Positions 1 through 18,896 of a stretch of DNA of 18,896 bases are shown piece by piece. Below the pieces are notes generated by a model. That model saw only the letters and a program-made list of their open reading frames with translations. It had not been told where the DNA came from and searched no databases. The stretch comes from an uncultured Flavobacterium sp. (GTDB lineage: Bacteria > Bacteroidota > Bacteroidia > Flavobacteriales > Flavobacteriaceae). The stretch is from positions 1 to 18,896 of the forward strand of contig NZ_CAMLIX010000079.1 of assembly GCF_946479975.1 (NCBI RefSeq), read 5' to 3'. The translations under genes were made by a program, and so were the position numbers. How positions within the stretch are numbered: the first letter of the stretch is position 1; every line of letters starts with the position of its first letter.

Positions 1-2
1 TC

Positions 3-1211
3 ATGATGGTTATGCGCCGATTAATGCGTAATGATTCTAGTTTAAAATGGCTTGAGCGTTATTTTATGCATCAAAATCCCCACAATCTTGATCGAGAATT
101 TATAATTATACTTGAAGCTGTTACAACAGGTGTTTTTCCTCCTGCTGCTCGTCAACTAATGATGCTAAACGTTAAAAACTGGCTAGATCAACTTACACAA
201 GGAGATACATTTGTAAATGAACAAAAATCACAATGGGTTAATTTTTTCGAAGCTATAGGTCCTCTCTCAGAAGGAAAATATCCTTTACTGGAAAAGTTTT
301 CCACTAATTGGAATTCTTTAGAAAATTCTTTAAAAGAAGCAAAAACATATCATATTATAAATAACCACTTTAAAAGCATTATCTCTTCTTCCTCTGACTT
401 TTCAAAAAGCACAAAAGTACAATTAGATGAAATTTTATCTTTACTGGTAACTAATTTTGATGATGAGGAACTTCCACTACAAGAACAGGTAAGATTCAAT
501 CAGCTAATCATTCAAATGGATGGAGATAAGAATGCGGCTCAGGCTGTCATGGATGCTGAAAAGCATATTTTTAATGAGCAAGTTGACTTCTTACAATTAC
601 TTACCAATGCTTCATTTAACCCCGAATTATCAGGAGCTACAAAAGTAACCCAAGCGCTTGCCGTTTCAATAAGTCAGCCTTGGATATTAGAAGCATATGA
701 TACATTTACGGCACAATGCAGAAATAAAATTCCGCAATCTATTGAATTATCTGTTGACGATTTCAAGGCTTCAACTAAAGACGGAAGTGAAGAAAACGAA
801 TTATTAAAAGAACAAGCAGCTTTCTATGATCGAGTTTTGGAAACAGAACTAGAAAAACTCTCTTTTCCATATGCTATCATAATTATTGGGGCTCTAGTAT
901 GCGTTTTAGGATTCTGGTTTTTTACTTTTCAGCCAATTATTGGGTGTTTAGCATTAGGAGGAGGAATTGTTATTATTTGGAATTCACTTAGCACACACAA
1001 AAAAGCTAAAAATAAAACTATTGAAAATGTCGCAGAACGAAGACAAAAAGGTATAGAAGTATTGAGAGGTTGTATTGCTGAAACTGTAGATTACAGAATA
1101 GAACATCTTTTTGAAGATAGTAAAGCCGAACAGGTAAGAAATCTAATTTCATCTATTACTCCTGAAGATTTTTCGAGTGTATCCAAAGAAGCAACTAGAA
1201 GTATCATTTAA
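3..1211 (+). CDS. Membrane-hairpin protein of unknown function, probably 5'-truncated by the window edge
   Basis: I do not recognise this family. The reading frame is open to the left edge, so the Met at base 3 may be internal; 402 codons are visible. Residues 1-285 are polar and look mostly helical. Residues about 288-306 and 310-328 are two hydrophobic segments with a very short turn (TFQP), which predicts a re-entrant or two-pass hairpin with both ends on the same side. Lysines right after the second segment (THKKAKNK) suggest that both ends are cytoplasmic. The last 70 residues are soluble and end in TRSII, a tail shared with two downstream genes. It lies 17 bases before the next gene, in one operon with the AAA+ ATPase at 1948-3501. 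A membrane anchor or scaffold for that ATPase is inference only. Confidence 0.8.
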   Translation: MMVMRRLMRNDSSLKWLERYFMHQNPHNLDREFIIILEAVTTGVFPPAARQLMMLNVKNWLDQLTQGDTFVNEQKSQWVNFFEAIGPLSEGKYPLLEKFSTNWNSLENSLKEAKTYHIINNHFKSIISSSSDFSKSTKVQLDEILSLLVTNFDDEELPLQEQVRFNQLIIQMDGDKNAAQAVMDAEKHIFNEQVDFLQLLTNASFNPELSGATKVTQALAVSISQPWILEAYDTFTAQCRNKIPQSIELSVDDFKASTKDGSEENELLKEQAAFYDRVLETELEKLSFPYAIIIIGALVCVLGFWFFTFQPIIGCLALGGGIVIIWNSLSTHKKAKNKTIENVAERRQKGIEVLRGCIAETVDYRIEHLFEDSKAEQVRNLISSITPEDFSSVSKEATRSII

Positions 1212-1228
1212 TAATAAATAATCGACAA

Positions 1229-1423
1229 ATGACGAAAATAATTTTAAGCAATCATTCAGAAAACTCTGAAGATACTGCAAATGAAACGAAAAGAGAGGTA
1301 AAAGTAAAACCTAACCTTTTTCAAGGAAGAATTGAAGCTGAGTTACAAAACGCAAAATTTCCAGATTGGGATATTATTCCACCAACTCAATTTATTAATC
1401 CGAGAATTAAGAGTCAACAATGA
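1229..1423 (+). CDS. Small (64 aa) hypothetical protein in the AAA+ operon
   Basis: I do not recognise this protein. The first 25 residues are acidic and polar (SENSEDTANETKREVK) and probably disordered. The second half has a hydrophobic-aromatic patch (LFQGRIEAELQ, then FPDWDIIPPTQFINPRI). No membrane segment, signal peptide or metal motif is visible. It starts 17 bases after the upstream stop, and its TGA stop overlaps the next ATG (ATGA at 1420-1423), so it is almost certainly translated as part of the operon. It lacks the Arg-x-Ile-Ile C-terminal tail of its three neighbours, but begins MTKIIL, which loosely resembles that tail. It could be an adaptor or assembly peptide for the neighbours; that is inference. 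Confidence 0.72.
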   Translation: MTKIILSNHSENSEDTANETKREVKVKPNLFQGRIEAELQNAKFPDWDIIPPTQFINPRIKSQQ

Positions 1424-1947
1424 AAGGTCCAAAAACTTATTCTGAATGGGTAAACTTTCTCAATAAATTTGGAGATGGAAATGATTCCGTACTTGACGAG
1501 CTTAATCAAGGAACTTTTGTTTTAGACGCTGGAACCGCAAATCGTTTTTACGCTAAAGTTGAAGAAGTTTATAAAAAAAGAAAACAAAACTGGCTGGATA
1601 AATTTCAAAGGTTTTTCGATCTACAAAGATTAAAGACAGAGGACGATTTTGAAATTGGGCTAAGAAATGGAAAACAAAATCTGCTAATTATAAAAAACTT
1701 TATTTCAATAGAAGCTTTCCCTGAAGATTTGCAAAAAACACTTAAAGAAGATTTGGAAAATTTCATTACTGAAATACGAACTTCACTAAAGGCCAATAAT
1801 TCAAAAGGTTCGGCAAAAAATGAAAAAATAGCACTTTTATTAAATTCTTTTCAACTTACCTCAGGATTTGCAGAGCAAAATAATCTAAAAACCATAACAA
1901 AAGACACAACTATAATTGCTCCAACAAGCAGAAAAATAATATTCTAA
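1420..1947 (+). CDS. Hypothetical soluble helical protein of the AAA+ operon
   Basis: This is a 175-residue protein that I do not recognise. Residues 1-125 are charged and look helical, with aromatic positions at regular spacing (SEWVNFLNKF, NWLDKFQRFFDLQRL). No catalytic motif, signal peptide or membrane segment is visible. From about residue 126 the sequence is rich in Asn, Ser, Thr and Lys and ends TSRKIIF, the same type of tail as the first and fourth genes of the operon. The start overlaps the previous stop (ATGA), and its TAA is followed directly by the ATG of the ATPase gene with no spacer, so translation of the three genes is probably coupled and their products made in related amounts. 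It is likely a partner or substrate adaptor of the ATPase (inference). Confidence 0.82.
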   Translation: MKGPKTYSEWVNFLNKFGDGNDSVLDELNQGTFVLDAGTANRFYAKVEEVYKKRKQNWLDKFQRFFDLQRLKTEDDFEIGLRNGKQNLLIIKNFISIEAFPEDLQKTLKEDLENFITEIRTSLKANNSKGSAKNEKIALLLNSFQLTSGFAEQNNLKTITKDTTIIAPTSRKIIF

Positions 1948-3501
1948 ATGGCAAATAAAGCAGAATTTAAAACTTCACTTCTACGAATGTTTAGAGCAAG
2001 AATACCTTTTATTTCAATTCGGAGCATAGAACGGGCAAGAGTTTTAGAAGTTATCCAGCAATTAGCAGAAGAGATCAATATACCTATTTACTTTCATAAT
2101 TTATCTCACGGAACTATTGATATAAAATCCAAAAAGAGCGTCAATGATGATCGTTCGGTTGCTGGTGGTTTGGACTATGCTGTTCAAAATATATCTCAAA
2201 GACAAAATCTAACATTTGTTTTCACAGAAGTAAGTGATATTGAGGATGACAATCTAGTTTCTAGACATTTATACGACTGTGTAATTCAAGCTATCGAACG
2301 TGGAGGAAGTATCTGCCTAATTACAACAAAAACGATCTGGCCTCAATTACAACGTTTAGGAATGACAATTACATTGGATGCTCCTAATGAAGATGAAATG
2401 TTAGAAGTTGTAAAAGAATGTGTTATGCCCTACAAAGGATCGATTCCGTTAGAATGGGAAGAAACAGATTACAAGATGGCCGCAACTATTCTAGCAAATA
2501 TGACAAAAATAGAGGCAGAAAATGTTTTGGCAACCCAGATGGCTAAAGGTTCACTAACTAAAGAAGACATAAAAGAACTAAGTAACGCTAAAGACAAATT
2601 ATTTAGTGATATATCCGGATTAGAAAAAGTAAAGATAGATTCTTCTACCCTTTCAGTTGCTGGGTTGAATGGCTTACAACATTGGCTGGATAATCAGAAA
2701 CAACTTTTAACAGCAGACTTAAAAGCTAGAAAAATGAGACCTCCTAGAGGCGTTTTATTAGTGGGTGTTCCTGGCTGTGGAAAATCTTTATCTGCTAAAT
2801 TCATTGCAGCAAATTGGAATTTACCATTATATCGCCTCGATTTAGCAGCTATTCAGGGGCAATATCTTGGACAATCTGAGAACAGACTAAAAGAAGCTTT
2901 GGCATCTGCAGATAATGCTGCACCTTGTGTATTATGGATAGATGAAATTGAAAAAGGTCTTTCTGGTGCAACAGGATCTAGTGATGGAGGAACATCAACA
3001 AGAATGGTTGGACAATTTTTGTTTTGGCTTCAAGAAAGTATGGCAAAAGTCTTTGTAGTATCTACTGCAAATGACGTGAGTAAATTACCTCCTGAACTTT
3101 TAAGAAGAGGAAGATTTGATGAGTTATTCTTTGTTGATCTGCCAGGTGAAACTGAAAGAAAAGACATTATTAATCTTTACATTAAACGTAATCTCTTGAA
3201 TGAGCCTTCTATCGAAACTTTAAATCAACTGGTTGAAATTTCAGATGGATTTGCAGGTTCTGATATTGAAGGAGCGGTAAGAGATATTGCTATTCAAGCA
3301 GTAATTCATGGAGATAGTATTGTAAATGACGATCTTTTTCAGAAGTGCTTTAAAAATATTGTGCCTCTCAGTAAAACCGCACCTGAAAAAATTGAATCAA
3401 TTAGAATCTGGGGAAGAGAAAGAGCTGTTCCTGCATCAGGGATTTCATGGGAAAATTCAAACAATGATAAATCTGTTGGTAAACGCTCAATTATTATCTA
3501 A
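1948..3501 (+). CDS. Ycf46-like AAA+ ATPase with an extra C-terminal tail
   Basis: A 517-residue AAA+ ATPase. Residues 1-230 match the layout of the Ycf46 N-terminal region: a degenerate nucleotide-binding-like fold starting near FRARIPFISIRSIERAR, with TLDAPNEDEM at about 141-150. The AAA module is complete: Walker A GVPGCGKS (273-280), Walker B VLWIDEIEK (328-336), sensor 1 VSTAND (371-376), arginine finger RRGRFDE (386-392) and the sensor 2 helix around GFAGSDIEGA (434-443). It should therefore be an active hexameric remodeller. The usual family sequence ends near WGRERAVPAS (about 488-497). About 20 further residues follow and end KRSIII, matching the tails of two operon neighbours. In the Ycf46 family the substrates are largely unknown; remodelling of the proteins encoded just upstream is inference. 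No terminator is evident after the gene. Confidence 0.93.
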   Translation: MANKAEFKTSLLRMFRARIPFISIRSIERARVLEVIQQLAEEINIPIYFHNLSHGTIDIKSKKSVNDDRSVAGGLDYAVQNISQRQNLTFVFTEVSDIEDDNLVSRHLYDCVIQAIERGGSICLITTKTIWPQLQRLGMTITLDAPNEDEMLEVVKECVMPYKGSIPLEWEETDYKMAATILANMTKIEAENVLATQMAKGSLTKEDIKELSNAKDKLFSDISGLEKVKIDSSTLSVAGLNGLQHWLDNQKQLLTADLKARKMRPPRGVLLVGVPGCGKSLSAKFIAANWNLPLYRLDLAAIQGQYLGQSENRLKEALASADNAAPCVLWIDEIEKGLSGATGSSDGGTSTRMVGQFLFWLQESMAKVFVVSTANDVSKLPPELLRRGRFDELFFVDLPGETERKDIINLYIKRNLLNEPSIETLNQLVEISDGFAGSDIEGAVRDIAIQAVIHGDSIVNDDLFQKCFKNIVPLSKTAPEKIESIRIWGRERAVPASGISWENSNNDKSVGKRSIII

Positions 3502-3713
3502 TTTTAAAGAAGCGATTTAGTTATTATTTTTTAATTAATAAATCTTCTAAACTATTTTTCAAATACAATAGTTCCGTCAAATTTATATTGATTATGAATT
3601 TACTTCGGAATTATTGTGTTTAATGTTTTCGAATAATTATTTTACTTTTTAGATAATGAATAAATTTAAATTCATAAATTTATTTGAAGTAGAAATTGCT
3701 TTAAACAAATACT

Positions 3714-4472
3714 ATGACTTGGGATCCAAAAAAATACAATCAATTTAAAGAAGAACGCTTTAAACCCTTTGAAGATCTTTCGGGTCATATTACGGATAAG
3801 CCCAATCTAAAAGTTATTGATTTAGGCTGCGGTACGGGCGAGCTGACAAAAAAGCTATACGATAAATTGACCGAACCTATAATTCTGGGCATAGATAACT
3901 CGGCAGAAATGCTGGCAAAAGCTCCCAAACAAGAAAATATTCAGTTTAAAGAAAAAACCATTTTAGAGCAATTGGAAGAAGAAACCAAATGGGACTTGAT
4001 TTTTTCAAATGCTGCCTTACAGTGGATTGATAATCACGAGAACCTTTTTCCGAAAATTATTTCTAAAATAAATCCAGACGGGCAATTGGCTGTTCAAATG
4101 CCTCAGCAAAACGAAAATATTCTTAATAAAATACTTTTCAATCTGGTTCAGGAAGAACCTTTTGCTTCTTATCTAAATAATTGGACAAGGCCTTCTCCGG
4201 TGCTAACTTTAGACCAATACGCAAAAATTCTTTTTGAAAATGGCGGTAAAGATCTCACGATATACGAAAAAGTATATCCTATAATTTCTTCTAATCAAGA
4301 TGATTTTTTCGATTTTATTTCTGGTTCAGCCTTAACGGTTTACCAAGAACGTTTAAATGAAAATGAATTTGAAGAATTAAGCAGCGAATTTAAAAAAAGA
4401 ATAAATACTTATTTCCCAAATGTTCCAGCTATATATGCTTTCAGAAGATTAATTCTATATGCTAGATTCTAA
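3714..4472 (+). CDS. tam: Trans-aconitate 2-methyltransferase
   Basis: A class I SAM-dependent methyltransferase, 252 residues, the same length as I recall for E. coli Tam, whose order of motifs it follows: TWDPKKY at the N terminus, SAM motif I VIDLGCGTGE (34-43), the acidic ribose-binding site GIDNSAEML (59-67), NAALQW (99-104), AVQMPQ (126-131) and the C-terminal RLILYAR. The family methylates trans-aconitate to its monomethyl ester with SAM in the cytoplasm. Trans-aconitate forms spontaneously from the aconitase intermediate cis-aconitate and inhibits aconitase. The gene stands alone on the + strand, 212 bases after the AAA+ operon and convergent with the LysM gene, but close to two aconitase genes. 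The ATG follows an A-rich leader without a Shine-Dalgarno sequence, as is usual in this phylum. A closely related small-molecule methyltransferase is the main alternative. Confidence 0.87.
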   Translation: MTWDPKKYNQFKEERFKPFEDLSGHITDKPNLKVIDLGCGTGELTKKLYDKLTEPIILGIDNSAEMLAKAPKQENIQFKEKTILEQLEEETKWDLIFSNAALQWIDNHENLFPKIISKINPDGQLAVQMPQQNENILNKILFNLVQEEPFASYLNNWTRPSPVLTLDQYAKILFENGGKDLTIYEKVYPIISSNQDDFFDFISGSALTVYQERLNENEFEELSSEFKKRINTYFPNVPAIYAFRRLILYARF

Positions 4473-4497
4473 TCAACGGTATTATTTGAAATAAAAA

Positions 4498-4527
4498 TTT
4501 AGAATGTTTACTCTTGATTATTCTAAA
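4498..4527 (-). terminator. Weak AT-rich hairpin at the stop of the LysM gene
   Basis: TTTAGAAT (4498-4505) pairs with ATTCTAAA (4520-4527) around a 14-base loop. Read on the minus strand the stem overlaps the stop codon of the LysM gene and is followed by a T-rich stretch, as a Rho-independent terminator would be. The stem has only two G-C pairs, so strength is doubtful. Confidence 0.35.
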
Positions 4528-5681
4528 ACGCGATTTACTTGAGAAAATGTTCTAGTATAGTAAGGCTCTTTTGTAGAAGAAATCATTACGCCTCCGTGAG
4601 TTGATGAATGAACAAATTTTATTTCGCCCTCAGCAACTTCTACAATCATTCCGACATGATTAATTTGGCGTCTGCCATTGGTTCTAAAGAAAATTAAATC
4701 TCCTTTTTGAGCTTCATCTGTTGTCACTTTTGTTCCAATTCTTGACTGCTCTATCGAACTTCTTGGCAATTTAATATCAAAATTATTGAATGTGCAGATC
4801 ATTAATCCCGAACAGTCGAAACCTTCTCTTGAAGTACCACCCGAACGATATCTAATTCCAATATTATCGGTAGCATTTGCAATAAGTTGATCTATTAATT
4901 CTGAATGGCTTCCAGATGTTACTCTAATATAGGTAGAATCTCTTTTTATTTCTGGTGCAGTTTCAGCAATTTGAGTTGATGAAGAAACTACATTTTCATT
5001 CGCTTGTTGAAGTGTTTGTGATGCTTGAATTGCATCGGCTTTTTCTTTTGGAACTCGAATTTTTAAAAGATATCCAACTGGAACTTTCCCTTTTATTGAT
5101 GGATTCTGACGTTCTAATTCTGCAACTGAAATTCCGTATTCTTTAGAAATTCCATATTTTGTTTCTTTAGGCTTAACCTCTCTAATAAGTTCTACCTCTG
5201 TAGAAACAATTTCTGGTACATTTTTACTTGGCTTTTCATCAATTGAAGCAATATTAGAAGGTATTACAATCTGTTGTCCTATTTTTAATCCTTCTGTTTC
5301 TAAAAGCGGATTGGCTTTCTTTAGATCATCAACAGTAATATTGTATTTTTTTGAAATTCCCCAAAGTGTTTCTTTAGCGGCAACTTCGTGCGTTCCTGAA
5401 GAACTAGTATTTGAAGAAGTATTATTTACGGCAATTTCAGAAGTTTTTGTTTTTGCCTTTGATGTACTTTTATTTTTATTAGGAATTAAAAGTATCGAAT
5501 TTAATTTTAGGGTTTTGGGAGCATCTGGATTAGCATCAGTAATCTCTTTTGTTTTAACTCCGTATTTTTTTGCTATAACAGTTAAATTTTCTCCTTGCGA
5601 AATTTTGTGCTTTATAAAATTCTCCTGCGAAAAGGCTCCAAAACTAAAAAAAAACAATACTATTATTAACTTATAAACCAT
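4518..5681 (-). CDS. Secreted LysM / NlpC-P60 peptidoglycan endopeptidase
   Basis: A 387-residue cell-wall hydrolase. Residues 1-19 are a signal peptide ending GAFSQ. Three LysM repeats, which bind glycan chains, lie at about 24-67, 97-141 and 169-211, separated by Ser/Thr/Asn-rich linkers. A C-terminal NlpC/P60 domain (about 258-387) carries Cys290 in FDCSG, His342 in INHVGM and His358 in FVHSS, the expected catalytic triad. The family cleaves peptide stems of peptidoglycan, commonly between D-iso-Glu and the diamino acid. The architecture is like that of LytE/LytF-type enzymes of other bacteria. It probably acts in the periplasm during wall growth or daughter-cell separation. The gene is monocistronic: it converges with tam and is preceded by about 250 bases of non-coding AT-rich DNA and the acnA terminator. 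Confidence 0.92.
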   Translation of the reverse strand: MVYKLIIVLFFFSFGAFSQENFIKHKISQGENLTVIAKKYGVKTKEITDANPDAPKTLKLNSILLIPNKNKSTSKAKTKTSEIAVNNTSSNTSSSGTHEVAAKETLWGISKKYNITVDDLKKANPLLETEGLKIGQQIVIPSNIASIDEKPSKNVPEIVSTEVELIREVKPKETKYGISKEYGISVAELERQNPSIKGKVPVGYLLKIRVPKEKADAIQASQTLQQANENVVSSSTQIAETAPEIKRDSTYIRVTSGSHSELIDQLIANATDNIGIRYRSGGTSREGFDCSGLMICTFNNFDIKLPRSSIEQSRIGTKVTTDEAQKGDLIFFRTNGRRQINHVGMIVEVAEGEIKFVHSSTHGGVMISSTKEPYYTRTFSQVNRVLE

Positions 5682-5934
5682 ACTCTATAATTTACATTTT
5701 TATTACTATTTAAAGAGCTCAAAACGTTTTATTTTAAACTCAAAAAAATCATTTTTATTACGTGTACGGCGAATTTAACTTTTTAAAGTAAAAAAACCTC
5801 AATATTTAACAACTATTTTTATTTCAGTTCTTAAATTTAAAACTGACTTAATATTAAAAAATGCTTTTTATTGAGTTTCAAGTTATTGTATTTTCTTCTA
5901 ATTTATCTTACAAATACATTATTTATATCAGCAT
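5682..5934. other. AT-rich intergenic region upstream of the LysM gene
   Basis: Non-coding DNA between the LysM gene start and the acnA terminator. It must hold the promoter of the LysM gene, but I see no clean TAnnTTTG box on the minus strand. No gene, RNA or strong repeat is visible. Confidence 0.6.
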
Positions 5935-5968
5935 TAAAAATAAAAACGCTCTGTTTTCACAGAGCGTT
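5935..5968 (-). terminator. Rho-independent terminator of acnA
   Basis: A perfect 10-bp stem (AACGCTCTGT at 5945-5954 with ACAGAGCGTT at 5959-5968) closes a 4-base loop. On the minus strand the stem is followed by TTTTTATTTTTAA. It lies 23 bases past the acnA stop and ends transcription before the LysM gene. Confidence 0.9.
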
Positions 5969-5991
5969 CAAATATTATTATTGATTGAAAC

Positions 5992-8256
5992 TTAAGCTTT
6001 TCCAGCTGCTATTAAGTTCAAGGCAGAACCAGCCACAAACCAGCCAATCTGACCAGCGTTGTATGTATGATTTGCTAAAATGATATCTTTAGTTCCATCT
6101 GCATGAACAAATTCTAAAGTCAACGGTTTTCCTGGAGCAAATTCTGTTAAGTCTAAGAAATTGATTGTATCATCTTCTTGAATTTTATCATAATCTGCTT
6201 CATTTGCAAAAGTCAATCCTAAAAGTCCTTGTTTTTTAAGGTTTGTTTCGTGAATACGTGCAAATGATTTTACTAAAACTGCTTTAACGCCTAAGAAACG
6301 AGGTTCCATCGCAGCATGCTCACGCGAAGATCCTTCACCATAGTTATGATCTCCCACAACAATAGACGGAACTCCCGCAGCTTTATAAGCACGAGCCACA
6401 GCAGGAACAGCATCGTATTGTCCTGTCAATTGATTTTTAACTGAGTTTGTTTTTTGATTGTAAGCATTCACAGCTCCAATCAACATGTTATTTGAAATAT
6501 TATCTAAGTGTCCGCGGAAACGTAACCAAGGTCCAGCCATAGAAATATGGTCAGTTGTACATTTTCCGAATGCTTTGATTAACAATTTAGCGCCGGTGAT
6601 ATTTTTACCATCCCAAGCAATAAACGGAGCTAAAAGCTGTAAACGCTCAGAAGTAGGACTAACCACAACCTGAACACCTGAACCATCGGCTGCTGGAGCT
6701 TGGAATCCTGGATCTTCAGCATAGAAACCTTTAGCAGGAAGCTCATCTCCTGTTGGAGCGTCCAGCCTTACTTCTTCGCCATCTTCGTTAATTAATGTAT
6801 CTGTTAATGGATTAAAACTTAAATCTCCCGCAATAGCTAAAGCTGTCACCAATTCTGGAGAACCAACGAAAGCTAAGGTATTTGGATTACCATCTGCTCT
6901 TTTTGAGAAGTTACGGTTGAAAGAGTGAACGATTGTATTCCTCTCTTCTTTTTCTGCTCCTTCTCTGTCCCACATACCAATACATGGTCCGCAGGCATTC
7001 GCGAAAACAGTTGCTCCAATTTTATGGAAAGTATCAATAAAGCCGTCTCTTTCGATTGTAGAACGTACAACTTCAGAACCTGGAGTAATTGTAAACTGTG
7101 ATTTAGTTTTTAAGTTTTTATCTGCAACTTGTCTCGCTAAAGAAGCTGCACGAGAAATATCCTCGTAAGAAGAGTTGGTACAAGAACCAATTAAACCAAC
7201 CTGAATTTGTAATGGCCAGTTATTTTTGATTGCCTCTTCTTTCATTTTAGAAATTGGCGTAGCCAAATCTGGCGTAAAAGGGCCATTCAAATGTGGCTCT
7301 AATGTAGATAAATCAATTTCGATAACTTGGTCGAAATATTGTTCTGGATTTGCATAAACTTCTGGATCTCCGGTTAAATAAGGAGCAATTTTATCGGCTG
7401 CATCGGCAACATCAGCACGATTTGTAGAACGTAAATAACGACTCATAGAATCATCATACCCAAAAGTTGAAGTTGTAGCTCCAATTTCTGCTCCCATATT
7501 ACAAATTGTTCCTTTACCTGTACAAGACATCGCTGTTGCACCTTCTCCAAAATATTCTACAATTGCACCAGTACCACCTTTTACAGTTAAAATACCTGCA
7601 ACTTTAAGAATAACATCTTTTGGAGCTGTCCATCCTGATAATTTACCAGTCAATTTAACTCCGATTAATTTAGGAAATTTAAGTTCCCAAGCCATACCAG
7701 ACATAACGTCTACAGCATCTGCTCCACCAACACCAATTGCTACCATCCCTAAACCACCTGCATTTACAGTGTGTGAATCGGTACCAATCATCATTCCTCC
7801 AGGGAAAGCGTAGTTTTCAAGTACAACTTGGTGAATAATTCCAGCTCCTGGTTTCCAGAAACCAATTCCGTATTTATTAGAAACCGACGACAAAAAGTCG
7901 AAAACTTCATTACTTTGTGTTTTTGCTCTCGCTAAATCTGTTGCTGCATCTACTTTTGCCTGAATCAAATGATCGCAATGTACCGTTGTTGGTACTGCCA
8001 CCTTAGATTTTCCAGCGTGCATAAATTGCAATAATGCCATTTGTGCTGTCGCATCCTGACATGCAACGCGGTCTGGTGCAAAATCAACATAATCTACTCC
8101 TCTTCCAAACGCCGTAGTAGGATTTCCATCCCAAAGGTGATTGTATAAAATTTTCTCTGTTAATGTAAGCGGACGACCAACGATTTCGCGTGCTTTATCA
8201 ACACGAGAAGGCATGTTTTCGTACACTTTTTTAATCATTTCGATATCAAAAGCCAT
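5992..8256 (-). CDS. acnA: Aconitate hydratase, mitochondrial type
   Basis: A 754-residue TCA-cycle enzyme that interconverts citrate and isocitrate through cis-aconitate, using a [4Fe-4S] cluster in the cytoplasm. The cluster ligands are Cys359 in [10 protein letters not shown] and Cys422 and Cys425 in [11 protein letters not shown]. Other active-site stretches present are HCDH (93-96), [11 protein letters not shown] (from about 158) and [10 protein letters not shown] (from about 640), which carries the catalytic serine and substrate arginine. Length and motifs fit the mitochondrial-type family rather than the roughly 890-residue AcnA/IRP1 type. The start chosen (8256) gives [15 protein letters not shown] after an A-rich leader. 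An in-frame ATG at 8295 would add 13 low-complexity Lys/Asn residues with no counterpart in the family. It lies downstream of acnB, but a terminator separates them, so it probably has its own promoter. Confidence 0.96.
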
Positions 8257-8321
8257 ATGTTTTTTGTTTTTATTATTCTTTTTTGAACATGACAAGTTAC
8301 AAAAAATAGAGCAATTATTAC

Positions 8322-8351
8322 AAAAAAAGCCCGAGTATTACGACTCGGGCT
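8322..8351 (-). terminator. Rho-independent terminator of acnB
   Basis: A 9-bp GC-rich stem, AGCCCGAGT (8328-8336) with ACTCGGGCT (8343-8351), closes a 6-base loop and is followed on the minus strand by seven T. It lies 22 bases past the acnB stop and 66 bases before the acnA start, so the two aconitase genes should be largely separate transcription units. Confidence 0.92.
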
Positions 8352-8373
8352 CTTGATTTATAATTAATCTTGA

Positions 8374-11145
8374 TTACATCACTAACTGTTTGTTAGACGG
8401 CGCAAACTTAGTTAAGTTAATCCCTTCCACAGCTGCTGTATATTCATCCATCGTAGGAGTTCTTCCTAAAATTGTAGAAAGAACCACGACCGGCGTAGAA
8501 GAAAGTAATGATTCTCCTTTTTTACCTTCTGTATCTTCTACAACTCTTCCTTGGAAAAGACGCGTTGAAGTTGCCATTACAGTATCTCCTTTCGCCGCTT
8601 TTTCTTGGTTACCCATACAAAGGTTACATCCTGGACGCTCTAAATACAACATGTTTTCATATTCTGTACGTGCAGCACCCTTTGGAGCATTATCGTCAAA
8701 TTCGAATCCTGAGTATTTTTGCAACACTTCCCAATCTCCTTCTGCTTTAAGCTCATCAACAATATTATACGTTGGAGGAGCTACAACAAGAGGTGCATTG
8801 AATTCAACTTTTCCTTTTTGTGCTTCAACATTTTTCAACATTTGAGCAAGGATTTTCATGTCTCCTTTATGAACCATACATGATCCAATAAATCCAAGAT
8901 CTACTTTTTTCACTCCACCATAAAATGATAAAGGTCTAATAGTATCGTGAGTATAACGTTTAGAAACATCCGCATTATTAACGTCTGGATCTGCGATCAT
9001 TGGCTCAGCAATTTGATCCAAATCAACTACAACTTCAGCATAATATTTAGCATTTGAATCTGGAGTTAAAGCTGGTTTTTCTGCCGATTTAATCTCAGTA
9101 ATTCTCTTATCTGCTTTGTTGATTAATCCTTGAAGAACATGCTTTTCGTTATCCATACCTTTATCAATCATGATCTGGATTCTGCCTTTTGCAATTTCCA
9201 ATGATTCGATTAAAGTTTCATCTTCAGAAATACAGATAGAAGCTTTTGCTTTCATTTCTGCAGTCCAGTCTGTAAATGTAAAGGCCTGATCAGCAGTAAG
9301 TGTACCAATGTGAACCTCGATAATTCTTCCTTGGAAAACGTTTTCTCCTCCAAATTGGTGAAGCATTTGCGCTTGTGTAGCATGAACCACATCACGGAAA
9401 TCCATGTACCCTTTCATATCTCCTTTGAAAGTTACTTTTACAGATTCTGGAATTGGCATAGACGCTTCTCCAGTAGCCAATGCAAGAGCAACAGTTCCTG
9501 AGTCAGCACCAAAAGCAACACCTTTAGACATTCTTGTATGAGAGTCACCACCAATAATAATAGCCCACTCATCGATAGTAATATCGTTAAGTACTTTGTG
9601 AATTACATCGGTCATTGAGTGATAAACACCTTTTGGATCACGAGCTGTAATTAAACCAAAATCGTTCATGAATTTCATCAATTTTGGAATATTTGCCTGC
9701 GCTTTTTTATCCCAAACTGAAGCAGTGTGACAACCTGATTGGTAAGCACCGTCAACGATTGGCGAAATTACTGTCGCTGCCATAGATTCTAGTTCTTGAG
9801 CAGTCATAAGACCAGTCGTATCTTGAGAACCTACGATGTTAACTTCTACACGAACGTCTGAACCAGCGTGTAAAACTTTTCCTGGAGCGATTCCTACTGC
9901 ATTTTTATTGAAGATTTTTTCAACTGCAGTAAGACCTTGGCCTTCATGAGAAATTTCTTTTGATGGAGCAAATACAAGAGGAGCTTCAACATCTAAAACT
10001 TTTGCTGCTAAAGTTTGAAGTTTTTTACCAAATACAATTGCATATGAACCACCAGCTTTGATAAATTCCATTTTCTGAGGTGTAAATGCCTTAGAAATGT
10101 CAATTAACTCTTGGTCACCATTATAAAGTTTTTTCTCTTTAATATTGATTGTCAAAACTGTACCAGTTTCAACAGAATATGTTTGTTCTAAAATTGGCTC
10201 GTCGTTTTCGTTACGAATAACGTTTCCGTCTGCATCAACTTTTTTAACCCAGTTTTTAAGATCTAAACCAATTCCACCTGTTACATCAACAGTTGTTAGG
10301 AAAATTGGAGAAATACCGTTTGTACCTCCAACAATTGGCGCAATATTTACGAAAGGAATATAAGGACTTGCTTGTCTTCCTGTCCAAAGCGCAACGTTGT
10401 TTACACCAGACATTCTTGAAGACCCTACTCCCATAGTACCTTTTTCAGCAATTAACATTACACTTTTATCAGGATGCTGTGCTTGTAATGCTTTAATTTC
10501 TTGCTGTGCCTGAGGTGTAATCATACATTGTCCATGAAGCTCACGATCTGAACGCGAGTGGGCTTGATTACCTGGAGAAAGTAAATCTGTAGAGATATCT
10601 CCTTCACCAGCAATAAAAGTAACCACTTTAATTTCGTCTGCCACTTCTGGAAGTTTTGTAAAAAACTCAGCTTGTGCGTAGCTTTCCAAAATTTCTTTTG
10701 CAATTTCGCTGTTATTTCTAAATGCCTCAATCAAACGATCTGTATCTGCTTCATAAAGAAAAACTTGCGTTTTAAGAACCTTTGCTGCTTCTTTTGCAAT
10801 TGCAGCATCAAATCCTAAAGCTAAATCTAATAAAACTTCAATTGAAGGCCCACCTTTCATGTGAGATAAAAGTTCAAAAGCAAAACCTGGAGTTATTTCT
10901 TCTACTACAGAATGACCTAAAATAATTTCTTTTAAGAACTTCGCTTTTTCACCAGCAGCACTTGTAGTACCAGGTAAAGTATTGTAAATAAAAAACTTAA
11001 GAGAATCTTCGCGATATGCGTTATCAACATCTTTAATTTGAGCAATGATTTCGCTTAATAATTCAGCTCCATCAATTGGTTTAGGGTGTAACCCTTGATT
11101 TTTTCTTTCTTCAATTTCTTGAATGTAATCCTGATAAATATTCAT
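8374..11145 (-). CDS. acnB: Aconitate hydratase B / 2-methylisocitrate dehydratase
   Basis: A 923-residue aconitase of the AcnB type, whose domain order differs from AcnA: an N-terminal helical HEAT-like domain (about 1-165), then the swivel domain and the catalytic domains. Visible signatures are GEGDISTDLLSPGNQAHSRSD (from about 180; the swivel domain), the GVGSSRMSG loop (from about 239), GGDSHTR (532-538), Cys756 in GSCMVHKGD, and Cys840 and Cys843 in RPGCNLCMGNQ, the three likely cluster ligands. Members work in the TCA cycle and may also act on 2-methylisocitrate. It is longer than the enterobacterial enzyme (about 865). The first cluster motif reads SCMVHKG where I recall SCMTNIG in E. 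coli. The start at 11145 (MNIYQDYIQEIEER) was preferred over an in-frame ATG ten codons upstream, because that extension is unlike the family and would swallow the leader. Confidence 0.94.
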   Translation of the reverse strand: MNIYQDYIQEIEERKNQGLHPKPIDGAELLSEIIAQIKDVDNAYREDSLKFFIYNTLPGTTSAAGEKAKFLKEIILGHSVVEEITPGFAFELLSHMKGGPSIEVLLDLALGFDAAIAKEAAKVLKTQVFLYEADTDRLIEAFRNNSEIAKEILESYAQAEFFTKLPEVADEIKVVTFIAGEGDISTDLLSPGNQAHSRSDRELHGQCMITPQAQQEIKALQAQHPDKSVMLIAEKGTMGVGSSRMSGVNNVALWTGRQASPYIPFVNIAPIVGGTNGISPIFLTTVDVTGGIGLDLKNWVKKVDADGNVIRNENDEPILEQTYSVETGTVLTINIKEKKLYNGDQELIDISKAFTPQKMEFIKAGGSYAIVFGKKLQTLAAKVLDVEAPLVFAPSKEISHEGQGLTAVEKIFNKNAVGIAPGKVLHAGSDVRVEVNIVGSQDTTGLMTAQELESMAATVISPIVDGAYQSGCHTASVWDKKAQANIPKLMKFMNDFGLITARDPKGVYHSMTDVIHKVLNDITIDEWAIIIGGDSHTRMSKGVAFGADSGTVALALATGEASMPIPESVKVTFKGDMKGYMDFRDVVHATQAQMLHQFGGENVFQGRIIEVHIGTLTADQAFTFTDWTAEMKAKASICISEDETLIESLEIAKGRIQIMIDKGMDNEKHVLQGLINKADKRITEIKSAEKPALTPDSNAKYYAEVVVDLDQIAEPMIADPDVNNADVSKRYTHDTIRPLSFYGGVKKVDLGFIGSCMVHKGDMKILAQMLKNVEAQKGKVEFNAPLVVAPPTYNIVDELKAEGDWEVLQKYSGFEFDDNAPKGAARTEYENMLYLERPGCNLCMGNQEKAAKGDTVMATSTRLFQGRVVEDTEGKKGESLLSSTPVVVLSTILGRTPTMDEYTAAVEGINLTKFAPSNKQLVM

Positions 11146-11172
11146 AATAAAAGCGGATTTATTTTTTTGTGG

Positions 11173-11180
11173 CAAATTTA
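11173..11180 (-). promoter_or_regulatory. Candidate -7 box of acnB
   Basis: On the minus strand the sequence reads TAAATTTG, a match to the Bacteroidota -7 consensus TAnnTTTG, 27 bases before the acnB start codon. No clear TTG -33 element is visible at the usual distance, so this is only suggestive. Confidence 0.4.
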
Positions 11181-11273
11181 AGCATTAAACCCGATAATTA
11201 AAAAAAATATAATAGAAGTCGGCTTTTCAAAAATTATTATTGTTAAAAAACGATTTTCGATGCTTGTTTTTGA

Positions 11274-11310
11274 CAAAAAATCAATTTTGAATTAAAAAAT
11301 TGATTTTTTG
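11274..11310. repeat. AT-rich 15-bp perfect inverted repeat upstream of acnB
   Basis: The arms at 11274-11288 and 11296-11310 are perfect reverse complements (CAAAAAATCAATTTT and AAAATTGATTTTTTG) around a 7-base spacer. It lies about 130 bases upstream of the acnB start. It could be an operator, a weak terminator or simply AT-rich DNA. Confidence 0.6.
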
Positions 11311-11500
11311 ATATTTTAAAATCTTTTCTTTAACAAAGTCGAAATTTAATGTTACAGAGTTAGTGCGATTTTACCTCTGTTTTCGCAAAGAATAGTTCTA
11401 AATAATAAATTATAACGTTATAGTTAGGTAATGAAGCGTCAATTTTGATTGCTTTTTAAAACAACTAACATTTTATCATTCGTAAAAACCAATAGTAAAT

Positions 11501-11542
11501 AAAACAAGAAAGCCTGATAAAATTATCAGGCTTTCTTGTTTT
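11501..11542 (-). terminator. Strong terminator of moxR
   Basis: Two perfect 20-base complementary arms (11501-11520 and 11523-11542) form a very long hairpin with core AGCCTGATAA / TTATCAGGCT. Both outer ends are A4/T4, so it could work in either direction, but only the minus-strand gene at 11556-12509 runs into it. It begins 13 bases past that gene's stop. Confidence 0.9.
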
Positions 11543-11555
11543 AAACTTTATATAA

Positions 11556-12509
11556 TTACATCAACTTTTTAATAATAACTTCTTCTGTTATTCCTTCCGC
11601 ATCTGCTTTATAATTTTTAATAATTCTATGACGTAAAATTCCAGTTGCGACCGCTTGAACATCTTCAATATCCGGAGAAAATTTACCATTGAAAGCAGCG
11701 TGTGCTTTTGCTGCTAAAATTAAATTTTGCGAAGCCCTTGGCCCTGCTCCCCAATCTAGGTAATTTTTCACAAATTCATTACTCAAGGCATTGTCCGGAC
11801 GTGTTTTACTTACCAAAGTAACCGCATACTCAATTACATTATCTGCTACAGGAATTCTGCGGATTAAATGCTGAAAATCGATAATTTCCTGTGCCGTAAA
11901 TAACGGATTAATAACTGTTTTTGCATCAGAAGTTGTTCGTTTTACTACTTGTACTTCTTCTTCAAAAGTTGGATATTCTAATTTTACAGCAAACATAAAA
12001 CGGTCTAACTGAGCTTCTGGCAAAGGATACGTTCCTTCCTGCTCGATAGGGTTTTGAGTTGCCAAAACAAAATACGGCAAATCTAACTTATGATGCTGTC
12101 CAGCAATAGTTACCGATCTTTCCTGCATGGCTTCAAGTAAAGCAGCCTGAGTTTTAGGCGGTGTTCTATTGATCTCATCGGCTAAAATAATATTAGAAAA
12201 AATTGGCCCTTTTATGAATTTGAAATTTCTATTTTCATCTAAGATCTCACTACCTAAAATATCAGAAGGCATTAAATCTGGCGTAAACTGAATTCTTTTA
12301 AAATCTAAACCTAATGCTTGAGACAAAGTATTAATCATTAAGGTTTTTGCCAAACCTGGAACACCAATAAGAAGTGCGTGGCCTCCAGAAAAAATACAAA
12401 GCAAAATTTGATCTACAACGGCATCCTGCCCTACAATGATTTTCGCTATTTCTTTTTTTAATTCATTTCTTTTTTGAACTAAATTATGAATTGCTGTTAC
12501 GTCAGACAT
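11556..12509 (-). CDS. MoxR-family AAA+ ATPase
   Basis: A 317-residue ATPase of the MoxR group. Walker A is GVPGLAKT (49-56), Walker B IILADEIN (107-114), sensor 1 ATQNP (150-154) and the arginine finger lies in EAQLDRF (165-171). The C-terminal lid (about 220-317) includes WGAGPRASQNL, typical of the family. MoxR proteins act as cytoplasmic chaperones that help activate or insert metal into protein complexes, usually beside genes for DUF58 and von Willebrand A proteins. None of these partners is present here: the gene is closed by a strong terminator downstream. Upstream is surA, separated by a hairpin terminator that leaves only about 20 bases for a promoter, so it may depend on read-through from surA or on a promoter overlapping the hairpin. 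Confidence 0.93.
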   Translation of the reverse strand: MSDVTAIHNLVQKRNELKKEIAKIIVGQDAVVDQILLCIFSGGHALLIGVPGLAKTLMINTLSQALGLDFKRIQFTPDLMPSDILGSEILDENRNFKFIKGPIFSNIILADEINRTPPKTQAALLEAMQERSVTIAGQHHKLDLPYFVLATQNPIEQEGTYPLPEAQLDRFMFAVKLEYPTFEEEVQVVKRTTSDAKTVINPLFTAQEIIDFQHLIRRIPVADNVIEYAVTLVSKTRPDNALSNEFVKNYLDWGAGPRASQNLILAAKAHAAFNGKFSPDIEDVQAVATGILRHRIIKNYKADAEGITEEVIIKKLM

Positions 12510-12529
12510 TTATGAGTATATTTTAAATT

Positions 12530-12571
12530 AAAAAGAGTTAGTTCTACGAATTCATAAAACTAACTCTTTTT
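12530..12571 (-). terminator. Terminator between surA and moxR
   Basis: Perfect 14-bp arms (AAAAAGAGTTAGTT at 12530-12543; its reverse complement at 12558-12571) enclose a 14-base loop. On the minus strand the stem ends in T5. It starts 16 bases after the surA stop. The long loop and AT-rich ends may allow partial read-through into moxR. Confidence 0.8.
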
Positions 12572-12587
12572 ATTTATTTAATAAAAA

Positions 12588-14021
12588 TTATTTTTTCAAC
12601 CAGTTGTTTGCAAAAGCACATTCTTTGTACTCTCCAATGATTTTGATGTAAGTATCTTTAATCTTAGTATCAAACCATTTTGCAATTGCGTTGATTTGTT
12701 TTTCTTTTAATGCCAGCTCTTTAATTTTTGTATAATCTTTGGCATAATCTGCAGTATGCTCGTCAATACGATTGGTAACTGTAATCAGTTTATAAGTCTT
12801 TTTACCTTTATCATCTGTATTTAAAATTGGCTGCGAAACTTCGTTTCCTTTTAAATTAGAAACCTGGCTGTATAAGCTAGGATCCATTTTTGTTAACTCA
12901 AAACGCGTATCTTGAGTCGTAGGGTTAACTAAAGTTCCACCATTTGCTCTTGTTTCTTTTTCATCAGAATCATTTCTAGCAGCATCTGCAAATGATATTT
13001 CGTTGCCAACAATTTTATTTCTAATGTTACTAATTCTTTCTTTAGCTTCTTTTAAAGCCGCTTCAGAAACTGTTGGAGCAATCAAAATATGACGAAGTTC
13101 AACTTCTTGTCCCTTTATTTTTTCAACCATAATAATATGGAATCCAAAATTAGTTTCAAATGGTGCAGAAATTTCTCCAGCCTGCAAACTAAACGCAACA
13201 TCCTTAAATTCTTTTACGAAAGGCGTTTTTCTTGTCATTTTATAATAACCTCCGTTTGGAGAAGATCCAGGATCCTGAGAATATAATACTGCTTTTGTAG
13301 CAAAACTAGAACCGTCTAAAACATCTTGTCTTATAGCATTTAATCTATCAATAACTTTTTGTTTATCTTCTTTGGAAATTTTTGGCTCAACCACAATCTG
13401 CGATACTTCCATTTCGGCACCAAAAGTTGGCAAATCTTCTTTTGGAATTTTCTTAAAGAAATTACGAACTTCTTCTGGAGTAATTTCGACATCTTTAACA
13501 ATCTTGTCCCTCATTTCTGAGGCAAGTTTCTGCTCTTTTAAGATATCTGCAAAATAGGTTTTAAATTCTTCTACAGAATTCTTTTTATAATACTCAACAA
13601 CTTTATTGATATCACCTCCAACTTGTTGTGTCATATAATTTAGACGCTCTTCCATCATACCTCTAACTTCGGCATCACTCACAATAATACTATCCTGAAT
13701 GGCTTGGTGAGCATATAATTTATCTTCTAGAAGTTTTCCAAGCATCTGGCATCTTGTGATATCTTTTATAGATCCACCTTGGGCAGTAATTTCTAAAAAT
13801 CCTTTATCAATATCAGAATCTAATACGATATAATCTCCTACTGTAGCGATAATTCCATCGATTTTCAATTTGCCGCCTGAGGGTTTTTCAGCAGGTTTTT
13901 CAGCAACAACATCAGGAATTATTTCTTGTGCTGCAATAATTGGAGCAAAAAAAAGAAAAAAACAAATTGTTAGAACAAACTTGTAATCAATTGTTTTTAG
14001 CTGTAATTTTTTTAATAACAT
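12588..14021 (-). CDS. surA: SurA-like periplasmic chaperone / peptidyl-prolyl isomerase
   Basis: A 477-residue exported protein. Residues 1-32 form a signal peptide with a long hydrophobic core (FVLTICFFLFFAPIIAAQ). Residues about 50-190 form the SurA N-terminal chaperone region, starting KIDGIIATVGDYIVLDSDI. Two parvulin domains follow, at about 203-302 (with GFHIIMVEK) and 307-417 (with LRHILIAP). A C-terminal helix (about 425-477) completes the SurA architecture. In other bacteria SurA escorts outer-membrane proteins through the periplasm to the BAM complex. A Cys pair (Cys91 and Cys468) may be exposed to the oxidising periplasm. The upstream ATG is followed by a typical Lys-rich signal-peptide start. 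A TAACTTTG box lies about 47 bases upstream, and a terminator separates the gene from moxR. Confidence 0.92.
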   Translation of the reverse strand: MLLKKLQLKTIDYKFVLTICFFLFFAPIIAAQEIIPDVVAEKPAEKPSGGKLKIDGIIATVGDYIVLDSDIDKGFLEITAQGGSIKDITRCQMLGKLLEDKLYAHQAIQDSIIVSDAEVRGMMEERLNYMTQQVGGDINKVVEYYKKNSVEEFKTYFADILKEQKLASEMRDKIVKDVEITPEEVRNFFKKIPKEDLPTFGAEMEVSQIVVEPKISKEDKQKVIDRLNAIRQDVLDGSSFATKAVLYSQDPGSSPNGGYYKMTRKTPFVKEFKDVAFSLQAGEISAPFETNFGFHIIMVEKIKGQEVELRHILIAPTVSEAALKEAKERISNIRNKIVGNEISFADAARNDSDEKETRANGGTLVNPTTQDTRFELTKMDPSLYSQVSNLKGNEVSQPILNTDDKGKKTYKLITVTNRIDEHTADYAKDYTKIKELALKEKQINAIAKWFDTKIKDTYIKIIGEYKECAFANNWLKK

Positions 14022-14067
14022 TATTTTAAATTTTATTTGAATGTAAAGCCTGCCTTAGATAACTCGC

Positions 14068-14075
14068 CAAAGTTA
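14068..14075 (-). promoter_or_regulatory. Candidate -7 box of surA
   Basis: The minus strand reads TAACTTTG, matching TAnnTTTG, 47 bases before the surA start. The -33 element is not clear. Confidence 0.4.
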
Positions 14076-14211
14076 TTTATATTTTCTGAAATACTTCCTG
14101 AAAGATAAATAATTAGTACAGTTCTTTCGTAACTTATAACGAACAAAAATAACAATTCAATTACATAATACAACTATCCGTTATACTATTAACAAAAAAT
14201 TATAGGATAGC

Positions 14212-14229
14212 TGTAAATTACTGTTTACA
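14212..14229. promoter_or_regulatory. Symmetric site TGTAAA-N6-TTTACA
   Basis: The two 6-base arms are perfect reverse complements with a 6-base spacer, the geometry of sites for dimeric regulators such as the CRP/FNR family. It lies between the divergent surA and amylase genes, about 190 and 290 bases from their starts. The regulator is unknown. Confidence 0.35.
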
Positions 14230-14516
14230 ACTTTATTTTTATTCCATTTTATATAATTGAAAAAGAGCGTGATCCTTTTCTATTTCACTGACTTAAAATT
14301 TCAATAAAAACCTAATTATTAGTCACATAAAAAAAAGTTCTTAACACTACAACGTTTTCGTAACGCAATATTTTTCTGCAAAATAGAATTACATCAAAAA
14401 AAACATACTTTAGATGCGTAATTATTAATTTTTACACCAAAAAACAAAACTATTCTCTTTTTATGGTTAAAAATTAGATAATTACAAAACAACTATTTAA
14501 CTCAACCACATCTATT

Positions 14517-15959: not shown

Positions 15960-15979
15960 TTTTAAAAATGACTATTCTA

Positions 15980-16007
15980 AGGCTGTTCATTATGAGCAGC
16001 CTTTTTT
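15980..16007 (+). terminator. Terminator of the amylase gene
   Basis: AGGCTGTTCA (15980-15989) pairs with TGAGCAGCCT (15993-16002), 10 bp with one G-U pair and a 3-base loop, followed by a T6 tract. It lies 20 bases past the stop. Confidence 0.92.
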
Positions 16008-16024
16008 ATAAAAAACATTTGTTC

Positions 16025-16090
16025 TTTTGCCACGAATTGCACGAATTAGCACGAATAAATTAGGGTAAATTTGTGCAATTCGTGGCAAAA
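16025..16090. repeat. Long intergenic palindrome built on GCCACGAATT
   Basis: The arms 16025-16042 and 16073-16090 are an 18-bp perfect inverted repeat; pairing extends to 16047/16068 with one G-U, giving a 23-bp stem and a 20-base loop. The left arm and loop also contain three CACGAAT units in a 10-base period (from 16031, 16041 and 16051). It lies after the amylase terminator and before the prfC promoter, with no gene of its own. It resembles short palindromes that I recall as recurring between genes in Flavobacterium genomes. Confidence 0.85.
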
Positions 16091-16169
16091 AAATTTACTC
16101 AAAAATCAAACTTGAAATTTAAGTCCCTTAATTAAGAACTGAATATTTTTATTAAGCCGTAATTAATAG

Positions 16170-16177
16170 TACTTTTG
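16170..16177 (+). promoter_or_regulatory. -7 box of prfC
   Basis: TACTTTTG is a perfect match to the Bacteroidota TAnnTTTG -7 consensus. It ends 19 bases before the prfC ATG, implying a very short leader (about 13 bases). The -33 element is weak (AT-rich, no clear TTG). Confidence 0.6.
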
Positions 16178-16196
16178 CAACCTATTTATACAAAAT

Positions 16197-17789: not shown

Positions 17790-17810
17790 AACATCTATAT
17801 TGAAATACAT

Positions 17811-17848
17811 AAAAAGGCTGTCAAAATAAAAATTGACAGCCTTTTTTT
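17811..17848. terminator. Bidirectional terminator between convergent genes
   Basis: Perfect 14-bp arms, AAAAAGGCTGTCAA (17811-17824) and TTGACAGCCTTTTT (17833-17846), enclose an 8-base loop. T tracts on both strands let it end prfC (+) and the Cys-domain protein (-), whose stops are 21 and 23 bases away. Confidence 0.93.
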
Positions 17849-17871
17849 ATATTCCAAATATTTAAATTTGA

Positions 17872-18609: not shown

Positions 18610-18896
18610 ACTGTACTTCTTTTTAAGTTTAAATCGTTAAAATGATTCTTATTTATATAGAGTACATTATTCATCAAAAGGTTGGGAACTGAATTAAATA
18701 TTATTAGAAAAATTTTAAAACCTAATTATTAAGCATAAAAAAGCGCTAATATTTTATCAGCGCTTTCTTAAATTTGAATTAATCAACCTTACTAATTCAT
18801 TATAATTCAAAAATTAATCTTCAAAGGTTCACAAATCTAGTTTAATACCTTAACGAAAAGATTTTTTTTCGATTAAAGTAAATTTAATCAGATGAA
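18610..18896. other. Non-coding right end of the window
   Basis: No gene can be supported here. On the minus strand a frame open from the window edge closes at 18850-18852 after 14 codons (HLIKFTLIEKKSFR). It could be the C terminus of a gene outside the window, but this is too short to call. The hairpin at 18740-18766 lies in this stretch. Confidence 0.5.
18734..18766 (-). terminator. Probable terminator of a minus-strand gene beyond the right edge
   Basis: AAAGCGCT (18740-18747) pairs with AGCGCTTT (18759-18766) around an 11-base loop; on the minus strand the stem is followed by T6. No gene inside the window transcribes into it, so it implies a minus-strand gene to the right. Confidence 0.7.

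Follow-up and report, generated by a model that had tools for sequence, protein, structure and literature searches.

An arginine-led C-terminal tail shared by unrelated products of a Ycf46-type ATPase operon: a candidate docking motif

Introduction

AAA+ ATPases of the Ycf46/SpoVK type are known as cyanobacterial, plastid and bacterial proteins, and the literature on Ycf46 consists mainly, among the matches listed, of plastid-genome papers. Another ATPase, IetA, belongs to the IetAS anti-phage system, whose definition includes an adjacent subtilisin-like protease, IetS. Short terminal addresses on proteins are known from elsewhere: in the excerpted text of PMC10623007, the eukaryotic cytosolic iron–sulphur cluster assembly (CIA) targeting motif is given as [LIM]-[DES]-[WF]-COOH. 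Here we analyse a stretch of 18,896 nucleotides from an uncultured Flavobacterium sp. (RefSeq assembly GCF_946479975.1, contig NZ_CAMLIX010000079.1, positions 1 to 18,896 of the forward strand), referred to below as the window. Its bases 1–3501 hold the 3' part of an operon, A-B-C-D-E, namely a truncated B followed by C, D and E, the last encoding a Ycf46-type ATPase. An initial annotation, made from the sequence alone, pointed out that B, D and E end in the same short tail and suggested a docking, sorting or processing signal.

The operon and its tail are not described in the literature searched (few subscription papers covered, among the matches listed), and neither appears among the named families of Pfam, NCBIfam or PADLOC (A by Pfam scan only).

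A conserved tail on three operon products

On the forward strand, B ends TRSII (1194..1208), D ends TSRKIIF (1924..1944) and E ends KRSIII (3481..3498). We re-read these endings in the sequence, together with the differing codons to which the initial annotation had drawn attention, and found both as given: ACT AGA AGT ATC ATT TAA for B (1194–1211), ACA AGC AGA AAA ATA ATA TTC TAA for D (1924–1947) and GGT AAA CGC TCA ATT ATT ATC TAA for E (3478–3501). A strict pattern, R-x-I-[IL]-[ILVF]?$, fits only B, D and E among the 13 accepted genes of the window, so that the tail is indeed limited to these three, although the other genes number ten and not eight as first counted. A looser pattern, [RK]-x-[ILVM]-[ILVM]-[ILVFM]?$, also fits AcnB (KQLVM) and MoxR (KKLM). 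The background of random proteins was sampled from flanks. Among open reading frames (ORFs) of at least 100 amino acids outside the operon, the strict ending occurs in 1/1066 and the looser in 9/1066; the strict one is found in 0/59 flavobacterial flank ORFs.

Conservation was counted with the looser pattern in the best 120 listed rows of each search for B, D and E, plus the window's own protein. Among these closest listed homologues the tail is kept in 121/121 for B, 119/120 for D and 120/121 for E, or 360/362 with the window's own included; the two misses are one D ending GRKI and one E ending WSGNII. Of the two outcomes under which the initial annotation would have put the match down to chance, loss of the tail in homologues was not found, nor was an equal frequency in the flank ORFs that served as random proteins, and the shared-tail observation is confirmed and is stronger than that annotation supposed.

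The residues ahead of the tail are far more variable than the tail itself in two of the three proteins. Mean column entropy in D is 2.40 bits for the linker versus 0.14 bits for the tail, and in E 2.67 bits per column for the linker (3442..3480, forward strand) versus 0.81 bits for the tail; residues 503–516 of E are modelled as disordered (predicted local distance difference test score, pLDDT, <50). This excess of linker entropy argues for selection on the tail, not on the tether. B, by contrast, is conserved at residues −24 to −6 as well (0.42 bits versus 0.32 bits for the tail), so this protein has no free linker, and the polar linker described ahead of all three tails stands for D and E only. 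Unrelated proteins whose tails are conserved while the tether varies are the signature expected of a docking motif; D and E show it, with B lacking the variable tether. Across 16 divergent B proteins (24–78% identical to the first row) 25 columns are invariant, the tail arginine among them, and R513 of E does not vary over 32 E proteins drawn from at least four phyla, the other 31 being 46–94% identical to that of the window.

Related tails occur in distant operons, for which we use our own locus numbers. In Betaproteobacteria (L006) B ends VRRVM, D RRNILI and E RRQVLG; in a Paenibacillus-family genome (L132) B ends ARAVI, D RRKVIF and E FRNVLV; in Clostridia (L014) B ends NRRIRV and E KTRKVLV; and in Fusobacterium (L137) B ends ERKII and E TRKLLV. 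Actinomycetota loci also have related tails. No homology is detectable among A–E (hhalign probability at most 1.2%), as the initial annotation had supposed for these unrelated neighbours, and within the reach of that test the shared end was therefore not inherited from a common protein.

Association of the tail with gene A

From relatives we infer that gene A of this genome lies upstream of the window. It stands upstream of B in Bacteroidota, Pseudomonadota, Actinomycetota and Paenibacillus- and Planococcus-type Bacilli, and downstream of E in Clostridia, Negativicutes, Enterococcus, Streptococcus-satellite and Fusobacterium loci. In 26 relatives A is 149–173 amino acids long, with a domain that holds an invariant Cys, two His and one Glu. 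No Pfam match above the cut-off was found in the A–D proteins scanned.

The E tail is present in 37/37 loci with A and an intact E (37/38 counting the frameshifted L026), loci that are not independent of one another; the background of this E pattern is 15/1066 ORFs. In the operon-type loci without A (L021, L027 and L029) the E tail is found in 0/3. A was not found in the genomes of these three loci; of the 15 genomes searched, 12 match A, one only as fragments. The C proteins of L027 and L029 stop shortly after WSxEPP, and none of the B proteins there bears a tail that can be recognised. L026 (Allobaculum sp. Allo2) is an operon broken by several frameshifts into fragments of A, B, D and E, while L004 has the tail on a contig that starts in D, so that the presence of A cannot be judged there. 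For B, the pattern used in the 38-locus count is very loose (background 177/1066; it also fires on L027) and is missed in 2/38 A-bearing loci, L026 (frameshifted) and L028; we rely on the stricter counts. Because the E tail is found in 37/37 loci with A and 0/3 without, A is the best candidate for the protein that reads the tails. The initial annotation had placed the possible reader upstream of the window: A, upstream of B in relatives, does belong to the system, and from the sequence comparisons it may bind the tails.

Nor is the motif limited to three C-termini, as it had first appeared. The starts of A resemble tails (MARIIL, MRRPIL, MPRPML), and the pattern M-x?-[RK]-x-[IVLM]-[IL] matches the N-terminus of A in 24/26 (background 28/1066 ORFs), with the 26 starts picked by a script favouring those that precede motif-like residues. 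When the nearest start is taken and the pattern loosened, the figure is 33/37 (background 148/1066). The four misses are L023, L028, L127 and L128, the script having taken an upstream start in L128; the fragmented A of L026 was left out. A motif-like start is also seen, with a loose pattern, in 12/37 C proteins of A-bearing operons. C begins MTKIIL or MNKIIL in L001, L002 and L128, and the window's own copy is MTKIIL (1229..1246, forward strand).

Acidic tails in distant Ycf46 operons

E is homologous to distant Ycf46 proteins (L030–L080) with 31–43% identity, most of which match residues about 14–497, and a tree with 10 of these 51 splits them from the operon E with support 100/100. Of the distant homologues, 22/51 end R-x?-[LIVM]-[DE]-[LIVFYM] and 29/51 have no comparable tail, many of the latter stopping near R-x-W-A-x-x-R-x-V-P-A, in line with the earlier view that E, with its tail, extends beyond the point where Ycf46 proteins usually stop. 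The acidic tails include, for example, RTLDF. The E-type tail pattern occurs in 1/51 (L055), a chance match in an ordinary Ycf46 end.

The neighbours of the tailed Ycf46 genes also carry the acidic ending, in 16/242 ORFs versus 1/328 around the 29 others (Fisher p 9e-6). This p-value overstates independence, as the 16 tailed neighbours lie in nine loci (L032, L042, L047, L049, L054, L059, L066, L068 and L079), six of them in L066 alone, and the pattern that selected the tailed Ycf46 proteins was slightly looser than the one applied to their neighbours. All seven tailed neighbours tested match HHH_3 (six above the Pfam cut-off and one just below), and two nearby genes tested, in L032 and L042, encode radical SAM proteins. 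DUF2997 is found in L032, L054 and L056, and DUF1257 in L044; A itself was considered as a DUF1257 homologue and rejected (hhalign probability 0.5%). A role for the tailed Ycf46 loci as contractile injection systems was likewise discarded, Pfam having returned radical SAM, HHH_3 and DUF2997 in the tailed loci tested, with a phage-baseplate-type neighbour, of those tested, in L035 only. An ATPase that shares its end with partners so appears to be a broader theme with two dialects; the tail has an acidic cousin in other Ycf46 operons, which the initial annotation had not foreseen.

Features of the operon products

The window carries the C-terminal 402 of about 566 amino acids of B (3..1211, forward strand, as are all features below), as judged from the ORF, a 16-row alignment of relatives and hydropathy. 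The gene starts upstream of base 1, its full length of ~566 amino acids being set by relatives, so that the first gene of the initial annotation is a fragment. B consists of a long soluble part, a hydrophobic stretch and a C-terminal region of ~70 residues. The hydrophobic stretch (fragment residues 289–330; 867..992), perhaps a membrane hairpin, reaches a hydropathy peak of 2.57 (Kyte–Doolittle, 19-residue windows). With a cut of 1.5, 8/16 relatives have two hydrophobic segments, 7 a single one and 1 more than two, roughly 70–100 residues ahead of the C-terminus. B is probably membrane-bound, but because the number of segments differs among the 16 relatives its topology is unsure: a hairpin would put the tail and the large domain on one side, whereas a single segment would not.

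C is a protein of 64 amino acids (1229..1423; ORF and locus comparison) with the end FPDWDIIPP..NPRIKSQQ, in which locus comparison marks another short motif, similar to LPxW[DS][ILV]xPP and basic at its end (1358..1420). The same motif recurs at the C-terminus of orphan B proteins in L123 and L126 (order of L017), which end PAWDLLPP and PPWDIKPL, as if C were fused there. Other orphan B homologues, in L121 and L122, end REIIA and are accompanied by a C-like gene; in L121, which was tested, an SPFH/zinc-ribbon gene and another, zinc-ribbon-like gene precede the orphan B. Membrane-stress operons of Bacillus are similar in make-up to this arrangement.

D (175 amino acids; 1420..1947) was delimited by its ORF and homologue search. 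E (517 amino acids; 1948..3501) belongs to the Ycf46/SpoVK type by its AAA domain (residues 269–397; 2752..3138; PF00004, E 5.6e-28, 98.4 bits) and its long similarity to Ycf46-like proteins. Its AlphaFold model (pLDDT 81) has a predicted fold nearest to p97/Cdc48, as would suit an unfoldase or a remodelling function. When profiles of A and B were compared with solved structures, the matches were all coiled-coil, designed or weak. The attempt to derive a tail-binding site from structure was dropped, given a poor model of A with no fold match and an E tail modelled free.

Distribution and genomic context

A-bearing operons are found, patchily, in five phyla: Bacteroidota, Pseudomonadota, Bacillota, Actinomycetota and Fusobacteriota. 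Counting genomes with a strong B match, the centre genome included and weak partial matches near E 1e-4 left out, we found 2/395 in Bacteroidota, 2/150 in Flavobacterium, 1/200 in the order of L006 and 5/104 in the family of L009. The order of L017 has 1/196, plus six genomes with a divergent B; four of these (larger regions) have no A, C, D or E nearby and two have C only. Around the A-less centres L029 and L027 the counts are 1/150 and 2/147 in their respective orders. The laboratory strain Flavobacterium johnsoniae UW101 is among the listed sources of a B homologue. Komagataeibacter and Comamonas plasmids carry the operon too, and a further copy occupies the right end of the record of the Streptococcus satellite phage Javan368 (L139; MK448457.1, 9674–14257). 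The four annotated genes of that copy are hypothetical proteins and C is unannotated; the record ends exactly at the stop codon of A, and its limits need care. This rarity, together with the plasmid and satellite-phage copies, suggests a mobile accessory system. A role in defence is possible. The four window proteins, taken together, correspond to no system modelled in PADLOC, and a known defence system was rejected on this ground.

Ten hand-picked large neighbours point to no common role, and four of them have no match at all. The matches comprise HerA/mad8-like proteins (L017 and L135), an SspH/mad8-like protein (L028), a type I restriction protein (L005), an Argonaute model (L002) and a TPR protein (L137). 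TPR repeats are found in L019 as well as L137, and a PspA gene lies near L010. ATPase-like genes for proteins of ~1000 amino acids (HerA/mad8, SspH/mad8) adjoin the operon in L017 (6138–9122), L135 (4070–7111) and L028 (749–3706), three loci that come from different phyla or sources; the gene is a possible sixth partner. We also observed that the 2.1 Mb Fusobacterium record of L137 (NZ_CP084075.1), which has one annotated feature and is classed as a plasmid, looks like a mislabelled chromosome.

Discussion

A shared motif, conserved over the variable linkers of D and E, present on unrelated products of one operon and associated with A, forms the basis of our proposal that the tail is a docking motif. 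It would gather one complex of A–E around a p97-like AAA+ ring and would most likely be read by A; from sequence comparison we put the probability of this reading at about one half. The motif R-x-Φ-Φ(-Φ), with Φ standing for I, V, L, M or F, would lie at a free end of most or all A–E subunits, borne in D and E by a flexible tether, and each copy might add as a short β-strand to a pocket on a common hub. B (probably membrane-bound), C, D and the AAA+ ring of E would then be gathered on one scaffold, which E would remodel using ATP. The hub would most likely be A, which could self-assemble through its own N-terminal motif. In the cell, such a complex would perhaps act as a mobile accessory system that protects against phages or membrane stress.

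Several observations weigh against this proposal. The D tail is present in only 19/38 A-bearing operons, being absent from Clostridia-type operons and some others, which the initial annotation had not foreseen. The A of both Actinomycetota loci (L023 and L028) lacks the N-terminal motif. AlphaFold leaves the E tail free, not docked on E, and its model of A is poor (pLDDT 57) and without a fold match. The association with A corresponds to about two evolutionary changes on the tree, the line of L027 and L029 also differs by its three B paralogues, and the A-less loci may come from incomplete genomes. In L021, where A and the E tail are lost, B still has R-N-I-M-I close to its end and C still ends in RR; A is therefore not strictly needed for a tail to be kept.

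Of the functions first suggested for the tail, docking is the best reading of the sequence data. Sorting is unlikely because no secretion model was matched and the operon is also present in Bacillota, Fusobacteriota and Actinomycetota. A type IX secretion system or other secretion signal was accordingly rejected, no Pfam or NCBIfam secretion-signal model having matched the four window proteins.

The strongest rival is a ClpX-type degron. The tails would then be AAA+ engagement tags, ends in which a basic residue precedes hydrophobic ones, which ClpXP or E would grab so as to unfold or remove subunits and thereby set their amounts or reset the complex. The resemblance, as far as the excerpts of the sources go, is one of letters: the ClpXP C-motif-2 (MuA RRKKAI, YbaQ RAKKVA; PMC9775585) is similar to the tails, and N-motif-2 (Met-basic-hydrophobic, e.g. 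DadA MRVVI; PMC9775585, PMC8138137) to the N-termini of A and C, so that the motif stands at both ends of proteins, as with ClpX tags. ClpX tags are loose, however, in the excerpted text of PMC9775585, while in the operon the arginine of the E tail is invariant in those 32 E proteins and I, V or L stand at fixed places. The E tail is also missing where A is missing, though these cells presumably keep their proteases, and no protease model was matched in the operon (A scanned against Pfam only). These points are not decisive, but they leave us regarding a degron as unlikely.

Slightly more doubtful is that E itself is the reader, with either its N-terminal domain or its p97-like ring surface binding the tails of its partners and, in competition, its own, as an autoinhibitory or recruiting switch. 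E is the sole family common to the A–E operon and to the radical-SAM/HHH operons in which ATPase and neighbours share a tail, and E as its own reader would best explain tails in two different Ycf46 operons. Its predicted fold is also closest to p97/Cdc48, and the C-terminal tail of p97 is read by p97 cofactors. Yet the E proteins of L021, L027 and L029 keep the N-terminal domain and have no tail, the undocked tail of the AlphaFold model does not favour binding to E, and the association of tails with A would be left unexplained.

A host protein outside the operon, such as a localisation or quality-control factor, seems an improbable reader. It would account for the B tail kept in the A-less L021, and binding by the operon's own proteins is likewise a proposal; but with the motif kept over five phyla such a reader would need to be nearly universal, and the tails are absent along with A in L027 and L029. 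Chance, or the composition bias of an AT-rich genome, has next to nothing in its favour: the looser ending does appear in 3/59 flavobacterial flank ORFs, but the conservation in 360/362 listed homologues, the related tails in Betaproteobacteria and Actinomycetota loci and the 1066-ORF background rule it out.

If the docking proposal is correct, four unannotated families become one testable machine, with a five-residue handle on which proteins bind one another, and genomes could be searched for further clients simply by their tail. A wider generalisation is more tentative, and we hold it with less than even confidence. Ycf46-type ATPases and the clients encoded in the same operon may have in common an ancient address code at the C-terminus, R-x-Φ-x-Φ, spoken in two dialects, each with a dedicated hub: an all-hydrophobic one in the mobile, undescribed A–E operon, where the hub A carries an N-terminal copy, and an acidic one, R-x-Φ-[DE]-Φ, in Ycf46–radical-SAM–HHH operons. 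Were this true of the acidic-tail operons, it might help to explain Ycf46 ATPases, as acting on clients with the same end as the ATPase.

Among described systems, the CIA motif is likewise a C-terminal address of a few residues on unrelated proteins that one complex reads, as given in the excerpts of PMC10623007. In letters it resembles the acidic Ycf46/radical-SAM tails (PMC10623007). The tails of the window differ from it in consisting of an arginine and hydrophobic residues throughout, in being bacterial and in standing on subunits of one operon. The ClpXP C-motif-2 and N-motif-2 share with the operon motif the basic residue followed by a hydrophobic end, at both termini, but the operon tails are tighter and position-specific and are known here from the products of one operon (PMC9775585, excerpts). 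E matches the IetA models of the IetAS system in its AAA part (93.2 bits, PADLOC), while reaching only 76.9 bits against the NCBIfam IteA cut-off of 510; no protease match was found with PADLOC or NCBIfam in the three other window products, or with Pfam in A. Also close are the Ycf46/SpoVK-type ATPases themselves. Their tails, where present, are of the form R-x-Φ-[DE]-Φ, and the neighbours in the loci tested are DUF1257, DUF2997, radical SAM and HHH_3 proteins, not A–D, none of these four domains having been found by Pfam in the A, B, C and D proteins scanned; but E is homologous to these ATPases over most of its length, and 22 of the 51 distant members also end in a short, arginine-led tail.

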